DNA of 64,000 nt from Bacteroidota bacterium (GTDB lineage: Bacteria > Bacteroidota > Ignavibacteria > UBA10030 > UBA6906): contig JAHBUR010000009.1 in the NCBI GenBank assembly GCA_019637975.1, positions 62,001 to 126,000 on the forward strand, written 5' to 3'. The notes beneath the pieces are model-generated. The model was not told the origin of the DNA and did not search any database. It was given only the letters and a program-made list of their open reading frames with translations. Shown here piece after piece: positions 10,080-21,453 of the stretch (position 1 is its first letter; every line of letters starts with the position of its first letter). A program made the position numbers and the translations under genes.

Positions 10080-10958
10080 TTACACTTTCTTGAACCAACT
10101 ATCATCGATTTCCACGTTTTCAATCTGCTTCGTTACCACTCCTAACTTCAGTTCTTTGAGCTTGTCACACAGGAGTTCTCCATCAACGAGGTCAATCGGG
10201 GGAGCGCCATCCCGAGTCGCCTCCTTCATAGCTTCTCTCGTGAAAGAACCTGTAGTAATGAATAGCCCTTTGTCAGCACGACCTTGCATCGCACCACGGA
10301 AATCCCGAATTAGATTTGGCCCGATGGAGTATTTGTACCGCTTACACTGGAATATGACATGAAAACTCAGGAATCCGCCTACTCTTACAATCCCTTTCCC
10401 GTCAATACCACCATCGCCTGCTTTACCAGTAACTTCAACTTGGACAAATCCGCTTTCACGAAGGATTCGTTGTGAAAGACGCTCAAATGAGCTTGGAGAG
10501 ATTTCGTACAGGGTGCTCAGTAAGCGTTGCTTCCACTCAATCTCATTGTCAGATGGTTCTATAAGCTTCTCAACCGATCCTCCGGCGCTCTTGGTCTTGT
10601 CTGCTTTCTCTGATTCCTTTGCTAATTGCATTCGAACGATCTTGACAACCTCGCTTGGGTCAACATTATCAATATCCGTGTCGGGCATTGTCAATGACCA
10701 TATCCCTCTTTCGGAATTGTCTATGAGGCCGGCCTTCTTAAGATAAGTTCGCGTCCAGTATAGTCTGTATTCAACCTCCGTTTTCGTTTCCTCTTTCCCG
10801 TGCGGTATTTGTAGAATCTCATCGCTAAGGCCCACAATCTCGTAAACCTTGTTATTGATCTCTTCGTTCGAGCCCGATCCGCCCAGGCTAATCAATGCTT
10901 GAATCACAGGCTTGATGAACTGGTCATACGTTGGAACCAGAGATTTCTTTCGTGCCAT
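10080..10958 (-). CDS. mrr: Mrr-like type IV restriction endonuclease
   Basis: Restriction endonuclease-like protein of 292 residues. The N-terminal winged-helix Mrr domain (about 10-95) contains YWTRTYLKKAGLIDNSERGIW. The C-terminal Mrr catalytic domain (about 150-275) starts SFERLSQRILRESGF and carries the PD-(D/E)xK signature as GDGGIDG with Asp186 and QCK with Gln204 and Lys206. Mrr proteins cut DNA bearing foreign methylation. No methyltransferase or specificity subunit is adjacent, as expected for a stand-alone type IV enzyme. Its own promoter is readable at 11008-11036. Confidence 0.88.
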   Translation of the reverse strand: MARKKSLVPTYDQFIKPVIQALISLGGSGSNEEINNKVYEIVGLSDEILQIPHGKEETKTEVEYRLYWTRTYLKKAGLIDNSERGIWSLTMPDTDIDNVDPSEVVKIVRMQLAKESEKADKTKSAGGSVEKLIEPSDNEIEWKQRLLSTLYEISPSSFERLSQRILRESGFVQVEVTGKAGDGGIDGKGIVRVGGFLSFHVIFQCKRYKYSIGPNLIRDFRGAMQGRADKGLFITTGSFTREAMKEATRDGAPPIDLVDGELLCDKLKELKLGVVTKQIENVEIDDSWFKKV

Positions 10959-11305: not shown

Positions 11306-12517
11306 CTATAGAATCCTGACAGCCCTCTTCTCACCAACCCTACTCCCCGCCTGCATCCCCAAACTCACCACCGCCGAAAGCAGCAGCATCCCCGCCATCG
11401 GCATGGCGGTGCCGGTGTGAAAAACGCTGACGAGTGATGAGCCGATTGCTCCGGCGGCCATCTGCATGCTGCCCATGAGAGCGGAGGCGGTGCCTGCGTT
11501 GCGTGTGAACGGCTCGATGGCAATCGCCGTTGTGTTCGGGCCGAGGAAACCTTGTCCCACGAGATAGCCGAAGATCATCAGCATAACAGCCCACGGTGGA
11601 ACGCCCGCCAGAACTCCCGCAACAAACAGCGCGCTGACGACAGTCTGTGCTGTCGCGGCAACCAATGCAATTTCCCTGCTTCCCCGTTTCCGAAGAACGA
11701 ACCTGTTCACCTGGCTTGCGCCGATCACGCCGCACGCGCTCAGTCCGAACACCCACGCGAACTGCTGCTCGCTAAAGCCGAAGAGGTTCATGAACACAAA
11801 CGGCGCGTCGGAGATATAGGCGAACAATCCGCCCGAAGCCGCCGCACTGGCAAAGCCGTACGCAATGAATGTCGGATTCTTCATGATGCCTGCATACTCG
11901 CGCACAATCTTGAAGGGATGAAGTGAGAGCGATGTGTCGCCGGCACGGCTCTCCGGCAGGTAGCGCACAACGACGAGAAGAATCAGCGCTGCTATTGCGG
12001 CAAGAATAACAAAGATGATGCGCCAACTCCAAACGGCGGCAACGTACGCGCCGACGGTCGGCGCGATAATCGGCGACACGCCGAGAATGAGCATGAGTGT
12101 GGAGAAAATGCGGGCAATTTCATTCAGTGGAAACAAGTCCCGCACGATTGCCCTCGCCGCGACAATCCCCACACAACTGCCGATGGCGAGAAGAAAGCGC
12201 AGCACCACCAACGCTTCAACGGTCGGTGCAAGGCTGCAGCCGATGGCGGCAACAATGTAGATGAACATCCCGGCAATAAGAGGCTTCTTCCTTCCGTACC
12301 GGTCGAGCAGCGGGCCGTACGCAAGTTGTCCGATGGAGATGCCGATGAAGTAGCTGGTCAGTGTCAGCGCTACGTGTGAGATGTCGGTGCGCAAGTCCTG
12401 TGCAATCGCGGGAAACCCCGGCAGGTACATGTCGATGGAAAACGGGCCGATGGCCGTGAGAGAGCCAAGAACGAGGATGAGGATGTTATGCTGTTTGCGG
12501 TTCATCATACCGGACAT
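11306..12517 (-). CDS. Bcr/CflA-type MFS drug exporter
   Basis: Twelve-helix inner-membrane proton-driven exporter of 403 residues. The N-terminal GPFSIDMYLPGFPAIAQDL and loop 2-3 GPLLDRYGRKKPL are diagnostic of the Bcr/CflA branch of drug:H+ antiporters, which export bicyclomycin, chloramphenicol or sulfonamides in other species. GVSPIIAPTVGA carries the helix-5 motif C. Translation may begin at 12517 or at either of two ATGs four and five codons later; none has a strong ribosome site. A terminator hairpin of the upstream TPR gene lies only about 15 bases away, so expression may rely on readthrough. Confidence 0.87.
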   Translation of the reverse strand: MSGMMNRKQHNILILVLGSLTAIGPFSIDMYLPGFPAIAQDLRTDISHVALTLTSYFIGISIGQLAYGPLLDRYGRKKPLIAGMFIYIVAAIGCSLAPTVEALVVLRFLLAIGSCVGIVAARAIVRDLFPLNEIARIFSTLMLILGVSPIIAPTVGAYVAAVWSWRIIFVILAAIAALILLVVVRYLPESRAGDTSLSLHPFKIVREYAGIMKNPTFIAYGFASAAASGGLFAYISDAPFVFMNLFGFSEQQFAWVFGLSACGVIGASQVNRFVLRKRGSREIALVAATAQTVVSALFVAGVLAGVPPWAVMLMIFGYLVGQGFLGPNTTAIAIEPFTRNAGTASALMGSMQMAAGAIGSSLVSVFHTGTAMPMAGMLLLSAVVSLGMQAGSRVGEKRAVRIL

Positions 12518-14106: not shown

Positions 14107-14397
14107 CTATGGTTTCTTGTCAAGGGCAGAGGGAATAGGCATTGAGGGATTATCCCGAAGGGCCCTCAAACGCTTGAGCCCGGTTTCTATCCTGTCAATG
14201 CTTGTGTTGATCAAGTTGACGTAATGCAGGCGCTTTTCGTTGTCGGGAGTTGTCGTTTCAAGCAAATAGGCAGCCATCCGCAAGACGCCCAACGGGTTGT
14301 TGATCTCGTGGGCAATTTCACGGATTCCCGACTTCATGTTTGTCACCTGTCCCTGCAACTCTTCCAATTCTGTTTGTTGTGAAGGTGTCATACGCAC
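14107..14397 (-). CDS. Stand-alone histidine-kinase DHp (HisKA-like) domain, no ATPase
   Basis: A 96-residue protein consisting of one dimerisation/histidine-phosphotransfer hairpin. The H-box reads EIAHEINNPLGVLRMAAYLLE with His30, as in NtrB-like kinases, followed by the second helix (LINTSIDRIETGLKRLRAL). It ends at residue 96 with no N, G1 or G2 boxes, so it cannot bind ATP itself. It lies 18 bases after the HTH-receiver gene in the same direction. It may relay phosphate from another kinase, dimerise with one, or act as phosphatase. The track start is a GTG; an ATG two codons later is equally possible. Confidence 0.72.
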   Translation of the reverse strand: MRMTPSQQTELEELQGQVTNMKSGIREIAHEINNPLGVLRMAAYLLETTTPDNEKRLHYVNLINTSIDRIETGLKRLRALRDNPSMPIPSALDKKP

Positions 14398-14415
14398 CGG
14401 GCTGAATAGTTGAAC

Positions 14416-15036
14416 TTAGCGGACGAGTTCTTCCTGAAGCGACATGGCATCCGATCTGATCAGGGCCGCAACCGCTTTTACCAATTCACTGATATCTGAA
14501 AGCTTGTCAACGACGGCGTCGGCACAAGTCTTTGCCAGTTCTTCTTTGAAGTCAGGATTCAGAAATCCTGAAATCACCATGATTTTCATGTTGTATTGGG
14601 ATTTGCGCGATTTCAGAAGTTCGAGTATCCGGAACCCGTCAATTTTCGGCATTTTTACGTCAAGAATGAGAAGGTGGGGTTTCTTCTCTCCGATAAGAAG
14701 AAGTCCCTCAAAGCCGTCATCGGTTGTGGTAATTTCAACACTTGGCAACTCTGCTGAAATGACACTTTTCAACATTTGAGCATACGGCTTCTCGTCATCA
14801 ATAATCAGAACGTTGGTTGACGTCTCGTCAATGTACTCAAACGGGATGTCCATTCCGGACGTATCAAGGAACTTCTTGAGGTTTACCGGCCAAACACGAT
14901 AGTGGCCACCATAGGTTGTAAACGCCTTGAGGGCTCCTTCATAAATCCAATTCAGAACGGTTTTTTTGCTTACGGTACAAATGGACGCAACCTGACCAAC
15001 CCCCAACGGCTTTCTGTAAGTTACCTTTGAAGACAT
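14416..15036 (-). CDS. HTH-receiver protein: excisionase/MerR-like HTH followed by REC domain
   Basis: Response regulator of 206 residues in inverted order. Residues 8-62 form an excisionase-like winged HTH (LGVGQVASICTVSKKTVLNWIYEGALKAFTTYGGHYRV), and 74-195 a receiver domain with acidic pair DD (79-80), phospho-acceptor Asp126 in LLILDVKMP, a conserved Ser (VISGF) and a Lys near VVDKLSD. Most regulators carry the receiver first. It leads a transcript with the DHp-only gene and has its own TTGACA/TATATT promoter, with GTGATTT repeats at the start site suggesting autoregulation. Confidence 0.85.
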   Translation of the reverse strand: MSSKVTYRKPLGVGQVASICTVSKKTVLNWIYEGALKAFTTYGGHYRVWPVNLKKFLDTSGMDIPFEYIDETSTNVLIIDDEKPYAQMLKSVISAELPSVEITTTDDGFEGLLLIGEKKPHLLILDVKMPKIDGFRILELLKSRKSQYNMKIMVISGFLNPDFKEELAKTCADAVVDKLSDISELVKAVAALIRSDAMSLQEELVR

Positions 15037-15052
15037 CCGATGCTCGATAGAA

Positions 15053-15070
15053 GTGATTTGCGTGATTTAC
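15053..15070 (-). promoter_or_regulatory. Possible operator: tandem GTGATTT(G/A)C
   Basis: Two 9-bp near-identical units (GTGATTTGC, GTGATTTAC) directly follow the -10 box, at about +1 to +18 of the HTH-receiver transcript. This position suits autorepression by the encoded excisionase-type HTH; that is inference. Confidence 0.4.
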
Positions 15071-15076
15071 GCATTC

Positions 15077-15105
15077 AATATAGTGAGGATTGGCAGCGAT
15101 GTCAA
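15077..15105 (-). promoter_or_regulatory. Promoter of HTH-receiver/DHp operon
   Basis: Perfect TTGACA, 17-base spacer and TATATT on the minus strand, about 40 bases before the gene start. Confidence 0.8.
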
Positions 15106-17799: not shown

Positions 17800-20700
17800 T
17801 CACGAAAAAAGTGCGGAACAGCCATTTGGAAGAAACGGGCAACCGGAGCACGGAATTCTTCCATCAGGAGTGAACTCTCTTGCGTGGATTTTTTGAATGA
17901 TGGACGACAGTTCATTCTCGAATTCAGCAAGGGCAAATTCGCCGTATGAGAAGTCAACGGGTGCCTCCGGGCGTTCAGCGAAAAGAAGATGCGCGTGAAC
18001 TTTGGAGGAGGAAGAATGCCTGCTGACAAGCAGCGAGTAGAATTTCACTTGTGGTTCGTACTGCGCCGCTTTCTGCTGAACTGTGTGGTTGGAAAGAGAA
18101 TCAGTCTTGTAATCGAGAACGTGCCATATGCCCTGCGAGTCGCGGAAAATGCGATCAAGAGTCCCGACAAGAAAGTCCTTGCCGAACGCCGCCATGATGG
18201 TGAACTCCGTACGGGTCTCCGCCCCGCTCTTCACCGAATTCCAGAAGTCTGTGCCGATAACTTTGAGCGCGGTTTCCGCCAGCGACTCAAGTTCGATTGA
18301 CGGTTCGGAGAGGATGGAATACGAGTCGCGCGCAATGAAGTCTTTCAACAATGTCACTGCCGACTTCTTATCTGTGCCCATGTCGTCAATGTACTGCATG
18401 AGATGATGGAACGCCCGGCCGCGCAAGTCGGCGGGAATCTCGGTATCAAGTTCCTCGTCACTCTGATCAGTGTACAATCGCGTCGGTGCAGCAGGAAGTC
18501 CGGCAACATAACGTAAGTAGTACTTCGACGGACAATCGACGTACGTCCGGATTTTGCTTGCTGAAAAAATCTCACCCTGAACTCCCGGCGGCAACGGGTC
18601 AATCATCAGCCGTTCCGCTTTTGCCGGAGCCGGGCGGGCAAATCCGGCTGCGCTTTGCCGCGCCAAATCCGCGGGCCTCAGAACATGAATGTCAAGTTTG
18701 TGCCTTTGTGAAGATCGTTTGAAACCGTTAGCTGTTGCATGCAGGTATTCCGTTACCCGATCAAAAGAGATCTTTCGCTTCGGAACAACATCCCCTACCC
18801 CGATCCCGTTCAGCAGCCAGTTCATGTAATGGTCTGTGGAACGGTTACCTTCCACAGCCCCGGACAGGATCAGCATATCCCGTGCACGGGTGCATGCAAC
18901 GTAGAAAATCCGTTTTTCTTCCGCGATCATTTTCGCACGGGAGTTTCTCTTCAGAAATTCCGCAATCGGCACAATGCGGTCATCGCCGGTTTTTGCCTGC
19001 TGCGTGAAGCCCAGTCCCAACTCGTCATCAAGAAACGGCTCATTGTCGTAGCGAAATGTCCGATCAAGGCCCGGCACAATGACTATGGGAAATTCGAGGC
19101 CTTTCGCAGCGTGAATAGTCATGATTCTCACGGCATCGGCCAGCACATCAACGGACGCCTGGCCTTCCTTTTCCTCCTGTTCGATCAATCGTTTCAGCCT
19201 TCCGACAAAATCGTACAGCGTCGTGAAGCCCTGTTGTTCGTAGCTTCGTGCAAAACGTTTGAGCTTTTCAAGATTGGCAAATGTCTGCTCGGCGCGCGGT
19301 GTTCCTGCAACAAAACCTGCATAGGCGGTATCGTTTACAATGCGGTTGACTATTTCGGGAACGGGAAGCCGCGTTGCAACAGTCGTATGCTCAGCGAGAA
19401 TTGAGACAGCCCGGACAACCGATGTGAACTGTTTCGCCTTGCCTTTGCCCGAAGCAATCAGGTTCCAGAAACTTCCTCCGCGTCTATCCAGCGAAAGTTC
19501 GTACAACTCGGCATCAGAAACATTGTAGAAGGGAGATCGAAGAATTCCGGCAAGAGCCACGTCATCATCCGTGTTCAACAGAAACCGGAAATAGTTGTAG
19601 AAGTCATAGATGCCCTGCGTCTGAAAATATCCGACTCCGCTGCTGACAAGATAGGGAATGCCGTGGCGAATCAGCGCATCTTCAAGATCGGAAAGACCCG
19701 TCCGGCTGCGCAGAAGAATCGCAAAATCACTGAAACCGGCGGAACGGGAGTTCTCCTCTTTCGAAAATACCTGACAGGGTTCGGATCGCAACTGAATGAT
19801 GCGTCTCGCAATCAACTCCCCTTCCGATATTTTATTCTCCTCTTCATCGATCGAGGGCTCACGCACAATCAGTTCAACTCTTCCCGGAGCCTTGTTTTGC
19901 CGCCCCTGGACCAGCGGTTCATACGAGACTTCGTATTTGCCGTTCTCCCCCTTCATCAACGGTTCGAACATAAGGTTGACGAAGGCGGCAATATCACGCA
20001 GCAACCGGAAGCTGTCCGCCAGCACAACCGATGCCGGATGGCCGGCACTCTCTTCAATTTCCCTTTTCGTCTGATTGAATACCGCCACATCGGCGTTACG
20101 GAAACCGTAAATCGACTGTTTCGGATCTCCTACTATGAACAGATTGCCACCCGACAGGTTGTCCATCAACGGCAGGAGAATTTCGTACTGAAGGGTGTTC
20201 GTATCCTGATATTCATCAACCATGATGAATCTGTAGCGTTGAGAAAGCTTGCGACGAATCCTCTCGTCGCGCAGAAGGTTCTTGGTCCGGATTTGGAGAT
20301 CCTCGAAATCCAGGTAGGCGTTTTCGAGCTTTGCTCCCTCGTAGTGTTCAACCGCATTCTGATACAATTCCAGCAATACACGCGAGTGCTGCAGAAGTAT
20401 CCGGTGAACCGAGTCGTCACCGTGTGTTACAAAATCGATGAGAGGTGACAGTGATTTGAACTTCTTCCTCAATCGTTCCGCTTGCTCACCGATGTTGCTG
20501 TTGTCACCGAATACTTTTTTCCGCAACTCACCCTTCTGAGTGAGCATTGCTTCGAGCAGTTCCGCGAACAACTGCAACCGTTCGTGAAGTGCCGTGGCGT
20601 GTTTGAATGTGCTGAAGCGCGGACGCAGGCTCATCATCGAGTTCGGCGTTGCAGCATTGACCAGCGCTTGAAGGTCACGTAATACGAGCGGATCCTCGAA

Positions 20701-21345
20701 TTCATGCTTCACAAATGCAGACAAATACGAACGCCAGAATGCCAGCACATCGTCGTCTGTCCGCTCGTACAATCCTCCGGGGAGTATCCACCGCTCCACT
20801 TGTTCGCGCTTGAGCGCGAGAGTGTGAACAATGTCCAACACTTTGAATTTTCCGAGAGCACGCAGTACCTCAAACAACCGCTGACGTCCGGCATGGGATT
20901 CCCCTTCTTTCAAGATACTGTCAAATGTTTCTTTGATCGCGGCCTCAAGCAGCACCTGCTGGTCGACCACTTCCAACACCGTAAACGCAGCGTCAACACC
21001 TGCTTCAACGGGGTATTCACGCAGGATTTTCGAGCAGAATGAATGGATCGTATCAACAACGGCACCGGAGAGTTGCTCACGAATTTCTTCCAGCGTATTT
21101 CTTGTTTGGCGATCAGGCGATGACGCAATTCTCTTGCCGATACCGTCTGCGATTTTGCGCTTAAGCTCGCCAGCGGCCTTTTCCGTGAACGTAATCGCAA
21201 CAACTTCTTTCACTCGTGCTTTGCCCGAGACGAGAATGTCGATGTACCGCTCCACCAACACAAGCGTCTTGCCTGAACCGGCATTCGCGGTAACGGAGAG
21301 ATGGTGTGAAGTCGTGAGGGCTCTTTCCTGAGATTGTGTCAGCAT
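17800..21345 (-). CDS. AddA-like UvrD/Rep helicase with Fe-S PD-(D/E)XK nuclease
   Basis: Helicase-nuclease of 1181 residues for double-strand break processing. It has a Q motif (LTQSQERAL), Walker A AGSGKT (about 22-27), the motif II region MVDEYQDTN, a GDPKQSIYGFR motif, TIHAAKGLEFP and VACTRARD. The C-terminal nuclease domain holds LDYKTD plus four cysteines: one in VDCPSKYYLRY and three in CSGCPFLPNGC, the spacing of an iron-sulfur nuclease. The in-frame ATG at 21345 is preferred to a TTG nine codons upstream. The partner AddB-like gene lies 9 kb away on the same strand. Confidence 0.87.
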   Translation of the reverse strand: MLTQSQERALTTSHHLSVTANAGSGKTLVLVERYIDILVSGKARVKEVVAITFTEKAAGELKRKIADGIGKRIASSPDRQTRNTLEEIREQLSGAVVDTIHSFCSKILREYPVEAGVDAAFTVLEVVDQQVLLEAAIKETFDSILKEGESHAGRQRLFEVLRALGKFKVLDIVHTLALKREQVERWILPGGLYERTDDDVLAFWRSYLSAFVKHEFEDPLVLRDLQALVNAATPNSMMSLRPRFSTFKHATALHERLQLFAELLEAMLTQKGELRKKVFGDNSNIGEQAERLRKKFKSLSPLIDFVTHGDDSVHRILLQHSRVLLELYQNAVEHYEGAKLENAYLDFEDLQIRTKNLLRDERIRRKLSQRYRFIMVDEYQDTNTLQYEILLPLMDNLSGGNLFIVGDPKQSIYGFRNADVAVFNQTKREIEESAGHPASVVLADSFRLLRDIAAFVNLMFEPLMKGENGKYEVSYEPLVQGRQNKAPGRVELIVREPSIDEEENKISEGELIARRIIQLRSEPCQVFSKEENSRSAGFSDFAILLRSRTGLSDLEDALIRHGIPYLVSSGVGYFQTQGIYDFYNYFRFLLNTDDDVALAGILRSPFYNVSDAELYELSLDRRGGSFWNLIASGKGKAKQFTSVVRAVSILAEHTTVATRLPVPEIVNRIVNDTAYAGFVAGTPRAEQTFANLEKLKRFARSYEQQGFTTLYDFVGRLKRLIEQEEKEGQASVDVLADAVRIMTIHAAKGLEFPIVIVPGLDRTFRYDNEPFLDDELGLGFTQQAKTGDDRIVPIAEFLKRNSRAKMIAEEKRIFYVACTRARDMLILSGAVEGNRSTDHYMNWLLNGIGVGDVVPKRKISFDRVTEYLHATANGFKRSSQRHKLDIHVLRPADLARQSAAGFARPAPAKAERLMIDPLPPGVQGEIFSASKIRTYVDCPSKYYLRYVAGLPAAPTRLYTDQSDEELDTEIPADLRGRAFHHLMQYIDDMGTDKKSAVTLLKDFIARDSYSILSEPSIELESLAETALKVIGTDFWNSVKSGAETRTEFTIMAAFGKDFLVGTLDRIFRDSQGIWHVLDYKTDSLSNHTVQQKAAQYEPQVKFYSLLVSRHSSSSKVHAHLLFAERPEAPVDFSYGEFALAEFENELSSIIQKIHAREFTPDGRIPCSGCPFLPNGCSALFS

Positions 21346-21453
21346 GATCGGTTCGTGTGGTCGGGATGACAAGCATACTTCGTTGTCAAGTCGTGGGACG
21401 ATGCTCGTGTTCGTCTATGTTGCATCGGTCGCCCTCGCTCGGAAGCGCTATGC

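Follow-up and report, generated by a model that had tools for sequence, protein, structure and literature searches.

A conserved DHp-only protein without an ATPase domain, encoded beside a two-receiver hybrid kinase in Ignavibacteria

What can a DHp hairpin do when it is encoded as a protein of its own, with no ATPase domain to charge it? The question is raised by a locus in the window (the whole stretch of DNA that was analysed, 64,000 nucleotides), where four genes run in the same direction on the minus strand, from 17650 to 12590. They encode, in this order, a soluble hybrid kinase, a regulator with an N-terminal HTH and a C-terminal receiver (the HTH-receiver protein), a DHp-only protein and a TPR-repeat protein (Table 1). 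The original prediction had described the regulator as HTH first and receiver second with Asp126, the next protein as a 96-residue DHp hairpin with His30 and no ATP-binding boxes, and the upstream kinase as a soluble hybrid with two receivers; our analysis bears out all three descriptions. Coordinates and residue numbering of the regulator were confirmed, with Pfam placing HTH_17 at residues 11-57 and Response_reg at 76-189. Its DD, phospho-Asp, T/S and Lys positions are all kept in 17 aligned orthologues, position 156 alone varying (S/T). The domain order of the kinase was likewise obtained from Pfam. Both of its receivers have all receiver residues intact, and the active-site residues of the kinase and of both receivers are invariant in 17 aligned sequences (one row lacks the His segment).

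Table 1. Positions of the signalling genes and their promoter elements in the window
Feature	Position	Strand	Description
TPR-repeat protein, 480 aa	12590..14032	-	7 TPR stretches; N-terminus resembling a lipoprotein signal
DHp-only protein, 96 aa	14107..14397	-	HisKA, no HATPase; phospho-acceptor His30, motif H-E-I-N-N-P
HTH-receiver protein, 206 aa	14416..15036	-	HTH_17 (excisionase/MerR-like), then receiver with D80/D81, D126, S156, K178
Candidate operator	15055..15070	-	9-bp-period direct repeat GTAAATCAC-GCAAATC(AC); own HTH-receiver promoter
Promoter of the HTH-receiver/DHp operon	15077..15105	-	sigma-70-like, TTGACA-N17-TATATT
Soluble hybrid kinase, 820 aa	15188..17650	-	PAS-GAF-HisKA-HATPase-REC-REC (Pfam); His329, Asp625, Asp749

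In the 96-residue protein, HisKA was the only domain above the Pfam cut-off (residues 26-80, E 1.9e-9, 37.9 bits against a cut-off of 26.9). HATPase was absent, with nothing following HisKA; Hpt (PF01627) was not matched at E<=1, and HEF_HK was not matched either. The AlphaFold2 model contains two long helices, 5-49 and 53-82, with a mean pLDDT of 89. The protein ends about 14 residues past helix 2, and a degenerate Bergerat-like C-terminal domain is absent. Its candidate start codons, GTG 14397 and ATG 14391, lie 18 and 24 bp past the HTH-receiver stop, and ATG 14391 may be the one used. A sequence search of solved structures returned kinase DHps as the best matches, but at E>=0.033, and a structure search with the hairpin returned the DHps of CpxA, GacS, ZraS and ERS1 at Z 7.8-8.6, values that unrelated coiled coils equalled.

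An AddA/RecB-like helicase-nuclease gene lies upstream of the hybrid kinase (17800-21372) and is kept at the same place in seven further genomes. On the other side are a Bcr/CflA-family efflux transporter over the NCBIfam cut-off (11306-12517) and a 292-aa protein (10080-10958) without an NCBIfam match, which by eye has the look of an Mrr-type restriction endonuclease.

Conservation of the DHp-only gene was examined in the window's own GTDB family (f1, 21 genomes). Homologues were found as ORFs of 84-105 aa in 14 of these genomes, at 34-97% identity. Across the 14 proteins M1, R26, H30, G37, R40, K55 and Y59 are invariant, and P35, M41, A42, L46 and L77 nearly so. An acid stands at H+1 in every one (H30-E31 in the window, where the E/DxxT/N motif reads E31-x-x-N34). 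Position H+4 is Asn in 12 and Ser in two (G013 and G015), and the Pro at H+5 is gone from one (G020). The reading frame stops soon after the hairpin in all f1 homologues, and in a set of 18 homologues it ends 68-86 residues past the His. Comparison of the window with a congener, G002, gave a dN of 0.019 and a dS of 0.349 (dN/dS about 0.05). Because homologues are present in 13 further genomes and purifying selection acts on the sequence, the DHp-only ORF is a real gene and not a chance frame. A search of genome contigs with the protein returned the congener Chlorobi bacterium CHB1 (NCBI: unclassified Chlorobiota) as its sole match, and among the 391 genomes of the class DHp-only frames were confined to f1 at a profile E<=1e-10.

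A frameshifted or truncated kinase, whose close homologues would continue into an ATPase domain, had been named as the finding that would undo the original prediction; no member of the orthologous group carries such a domain, and the 14 intact short ORFs together with the dN/dS rule this origin out. The DHp gene is gone from several relatives, as a decaying kinase remnant might be, yet a remnant or an annotation artefact is the least probable of all the readings weighed here, given the same dN/dS, ORFs that stay intact down to 34% identity, and a defined C-terminal end with an ATPase in no close relative. The DHp-only protein is a genuine ATPase-free DHp module.

Its origin is suggested by the group next closest after f1, homologues found in the sister families f2 and f4 at profile E values of 1e-14 to 1e-21. 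These proteins are mostly 224-232 aa (longer where the start is uncertain) and consist of an N-terminal degenerate receiver and a C-terminal DHp, after which they end; we refer to them as pREC-DHp. From their length of ~232 aa the f4 homologues could have been DHp-plus-ATPase kinases, a candidate that sequence, Pfam and alignment ruled out. In the four f4/f2 homologues put through Pfam, HisKA was above the cut-off, Response_reg was below it or absent, and HATPase was absent from all four. In an alignment of 15 pREC-DHp proteins, nearly every sequence has Gly58 at the phospho-Asp position and the region of the Lys is gone, while H155 (equivalent to H30), N158, N159 and P160 are invariant and the Asn of the E/DxxT/N motif is kept in all 15. 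An invariant His box next to a dead receiver Asp indicates that the box is kept by selection even as the active site of the receiver degenerates. Remoter relatives, in f5, f1 and the window's own genome, combine an intact receiver with a DHp, also without an ATPase.

In a tree of DHp domains, the ATPase-less DHps all split from nine complete kinases (91/88), and the f1 DHp-only proteins formed one group (97/94) next to the pREC-DHp (82/73, a moderate node from 80 columns). The window's DHp and that of the hybrid kinase are not close in sequence. The grouping with pREC-DHp is supported by shared neighbours: the HTH-receiver gene lies upstream of the DHp in both f1 and f4, and in several genomes a gene for a YchF-like GTPase (named from its sequence by eye) lies downstream, after the pREC-DHp in f4 and after the TPR gene in f1. 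The relatives suggest that the DHp-only protein arose by shedding a dead receiver and not from a broken kinase. The simplest order is from live receiver-DHp through dead receiver-DHp to DHp alone, a direction read without an independent root.

Two further ATPase-less DHps were seen in the window's own genome. One is a paralogous intact receiver-DHp of 246 aa on contig C1 (L149, 3323-4063), divergent from genes that encode a single receiver and a regulator of the NtrC type, with close copies in G005 and G003. The other, on contig C3 (L151, 32-373), carries the box HEIANP and has no ATPase at its end; it is cut by the contig start, and its N-terminal part may be missing.

We then compared the partner genes. 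Two neighbours are constant in f1, the hybrid kinase on the upstream side and the TPR gene on the downstream side: in 14 of 14 DHp genomes the kinase adjoins either the DHp or the HTH-receiver/DHp pair, and a TPR orthologue of 41-90% identity lies beside the DHp. The HTH-receiver gene sits between kinase and DHp in only 5 of the 14; the nine other genomes, with hybrid kinase and DHp, contained no HTH-receiver genome-wide at E<=1e-20. The box reads HEINN where the HTH-receiver is present and HD/E-x-S/G/A where it is not, a single clade-level change and so not independent evidence. In G016 and G017 the kinase and HTH-receiver genes stand in tandem, with no trace of a DHp in the gap and no Pfam HPt match in either genome, so the two can persist without a DHp or an HPt. 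In G007, G009 and G010 the TPR gene follows the kinase directly. The absence calls rest on contiguous loci in these five genomes and on whole-genome thresholds elsewhere; the assemblies are mostly fragmented, and in G003 and G011, which have neither DHp nor HTH-receiver, the locus falls outside the recovered contigs. The tree of kinase and TPR sequences implies several independent losses.

The sister families add other partners. An HTH-receiver orthologue (46-56% identity) occurs in 11 of 15 f4 genomes, with a pREC-DHp just downstream in all 11, and this pair does not have the hybrid kinase next door. The remaining four f4 genomes contained no HTH-receiver at E<=1e-20 and no DHp match better than E 5e-7. 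In f2 a large kinase gene begins no more than about 30 bp after the pREC-DHp; the one scanned encodes a hybrid kinase that has PAS/GAF domains and a receiver. The concern that the HTH-receiver/DHp pair might not be conserved is therefore answered by its retention in two families, f1 and f4.

These distributions bear on an obligate four-step relay, in which phosphate would pass from the kinase His to a receiver Asp, then to DHp His30 and finally to HTH-receiver Asp126, as with Spo0B or ChpT. Several features suit such a route, namely a hybrid kinase with two receivers and no HPt, an invariant His30, and an HTH-receiver gene adjoining the DHp in both families. A search of the window's own genome likewise returned no free-standing HPt; its two HPt domains lie inside frames of 752 and 923 aa, and the DHp locus is not among its Hpt matches. 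We nevertheless consider the obligate relay doubtful, because kinase and DHp occur without any HTH-receiver in nine genomes, because the kinase and the HTH-receiver occur together in G016 and G017 with neither a DHp nor an HPt match, and because the f4 pair lacks this kinase next door. The DHp is always encoded beside intact receivers, but not beside any one fixed receiver. This speaks for an accessory role directed at whichever receivers are encoded locally, and against a relay in which transfer to the HTH-receiver is obligatory. Of the proposal that a free DHp module acts between kinase and HTH-receiver, the ATPase-free module stands, and the dedicated go-between is not supported, in view of the independent losses; a fixed kinase-DHp-HTH-receiver relay is unlikely.

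The hairpin could instead be a non-catalytic dimerisation or docking partner that binds receivers or the DHp of another kinase, blocking or tethering them. The lone hairpin retains the dimer interface, several of the f1 invariant residues (R26, K55, Y59) lie outside the catalytic box, and dimerisation and protein interaction have been proposed for archaeal REC-PAS-HisKA proteins without an ATPase (Galperin et al., PMC5847659). We place this below the relay in probability, since an invariant His with E/D at H+1 in 14 diverged proteins is hard to explain without His chemistry, the box is also kept in pREC-DHp with dead receivers, and the hairpin and the hybrid-kinase DHp are not closely similar in sequence.

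Split kinases provide another precedent, one example being the CheA3/CheA4 pair of R. sphaeroides. A separate ATP-binding protein might phosphorylate the retained His30 in trans, and split kinases are known in general (PMC3591291). This is very unlikely at the present locus: no stand-alone HATPase gene was recognised next to the DHp in the loci examined, and its constant neighbours encode a TPR protein and a hybrid kinase that is itself complete.

Judged from sequence comparison, the DHp-only protein probably takes phosphate off the proteins encoded beside it or passes it on. The reading that we find on balance probable is an accessory phosphatase or reversible phosphoryl-acceptor hairpin that would act on locally encoded receivers; it is favoured because the DHp has been lost from the kinase/HTH-receiver pair and has been kept without the HTH-receiver. 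We rank it first, followed by the obligate relay, the non-catalytic partner, the split kinase and the remnant. EnvZ without its catalytic domain is reportedly a phosphatase, going by the title of the work of Zhu et al. from 2000. The isolated DHp of HK853 is a phosphatase whose activity depends on the His (PMC5727384), and phosphatase activity of HisKA proteins requires the T/N of the E/DxxT/N motif (PMC3510030). Phosphate is also shuttled by the DHp His of ChpT and PhyT (PMC3433190, PMC5898713).

Residues for phosphatase and for phosphotransfer activity are both present in the window's DHp, and a phosphotransferase would retain the same His box, which counts against the phosphatase reading. 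So do the Ser at H+4 and the lost Pro at H+5 noted above, which show that the motif is not absolute. In HisKA kinases the ATPase domain or linker provides part of the receiver contact, and binding by a hairpin on its own may therefore be weak. Two to three lineages at least have lost the DHp and retained its neighbours, which indicates that it is dispensable.

We propose the following mechanism for the accessory phosphatase or phosphoryl acceptor. The free-standing DHp, belonging to a long-standing line of receiver-DHp proteins that lack an ATPase, would pair into a dimeric four-helix bundle. Its putative targets are the phosphorylated neighbouring receivers, chiefly those of the hybrid kinase, plus the HTH-receiver where present. 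Catalysis would proceed via His30 and the E/D-x-x-N motif, either as a phosphatase or by reversible acceptance of the phosphoryl group. Unable to charge itself, the hairpin would trim or drain the phosphate supplied by the hybrid kinase. The HTH-receiver in turn probably controls its own operon, and hence the dose of DHp, via the direct repeat in its promoter. We also put forward, tentatively, a broader idea: that receiver death and loss, as opposed to ATPase decay, gave rise to a minimal natural phospho-His hairpin that may act as a mobile phosphatase or phosphotransferase, reassigned between partners (the HTH-receiver in f4, a PAS hybrid kinase in f2, the two-receiver hybrid kinase in f1).

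Comparison with described systems shows that ATPase-less HisKA proteins are already known in archaea, and the bacterial hairpin-only gene is a variant of those. The archaeal set comprises kinase-like proteins with HisKA but no HATPase and REC-(PAS/GAF)-HisKA regulators, for which a phosphatase or phosphotransfer role has been proposed (Galperin et al. 2018, PMC5847659). Both they and the window's protein have a HisKA with a conserved His and lack the ATPase domain. The archaeal proteins, however, carry N-terminal PAS, GAF or REC domains, whereas the window's protein is a bacterial hairpin only, encoded at a conserved locus, and among its relatives it is the receiver that dies first. Proteins of the Spo0B, ChpT and PhyT type have a DHp-type hairpin with an active His that cannot autophosphorylate, and are dimeric four-helix bundles (PMC3433190, PMC5898713); the window's DHp resembles them in its predicted hairpin and its invariant His. 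ChpT keeps a C-terminal domain with an atypical Bergerat fold, and PhyT an ATPase domain that has degenerated, while the window's DHp has no C-terminal domain and is most closely related to receiver-DHp proteins and not to kinases. The isolated DHps of EnvZ and HK853 also lack a catalytic domain, and phosphatase activity was shown for that of HK853 (PMC5727384), but these are laboratory fragments and the window's DHp is a natural gene. The HEF_HK-only architecture (PF19191, 3 of 222 sequences; PMC8011034) is likewise a DHp-like domain without another known domain, but from a different DHp family.

In the open-licence literature we found no account of a bacterial gene for a DHp alone at a conserved locus, and none of a dead-receiver intermediate. 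ATPase-less HisKA proteins are commonly dismissed as incomplete kinases. Here a single order holds the series of live receiver-DHp, dead receiver-DHp and DHp alone, with conserved gene neighbours. The series makes the function of a lone DHp testable, offering natural proteins of ~90 residues, named receivers, and genomes without one partner or the other.

For regulators with an N-terminal HTH and a C-terminal receiver, no description of the class was found in the open-licence literature. A Methylomagnum ishizawai plasmid protein is 33% identical over residues 15-162, which span most of the HTH and then much of the receiver. A second HTH-receiver copy, 52% identical, is present in the congener G001 (L099, contig C229), with no adjoining DHp and an ECF-sigma-like gene downstream.

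Lastly, the promoter region of the HTH-receiver/DHp operon was compared among genomes. A similar promoter arrangement was present upstream of all seven f1 HTH-receiver genes, and the direct repeat upstream of six. With no mismatch allowed, the repeat was absent from the ten f1 kinase loci without an HTH-receiver that were scanned; an eleventh such locus, in G014, has one match, with a mismatch. The strict pattern, which was derived from the same promoters, so that the whole-genome count measures rarity elsewhere and not independent discovery, gave one match in each of four genomes, two in the window's own and none in G001, six genomes in all. The copy in G001 deviates at one constrained position. 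In each of the five genomes with strict matches, one match is the HTH-receiver promoter. This pattern suggests that the direct repeat is a candidate operator for autoregulation of the operon by the HTH-receiver. The f1 repeat was not present in the f4 HTH-receiver promoter regions. About 100 bp upstream of the f4 HTH-receiver genes (L092-L103), nearly every promoter region contains a GTGA-N6-TCAC palindrome resembling sites of the CRP/FNR family.
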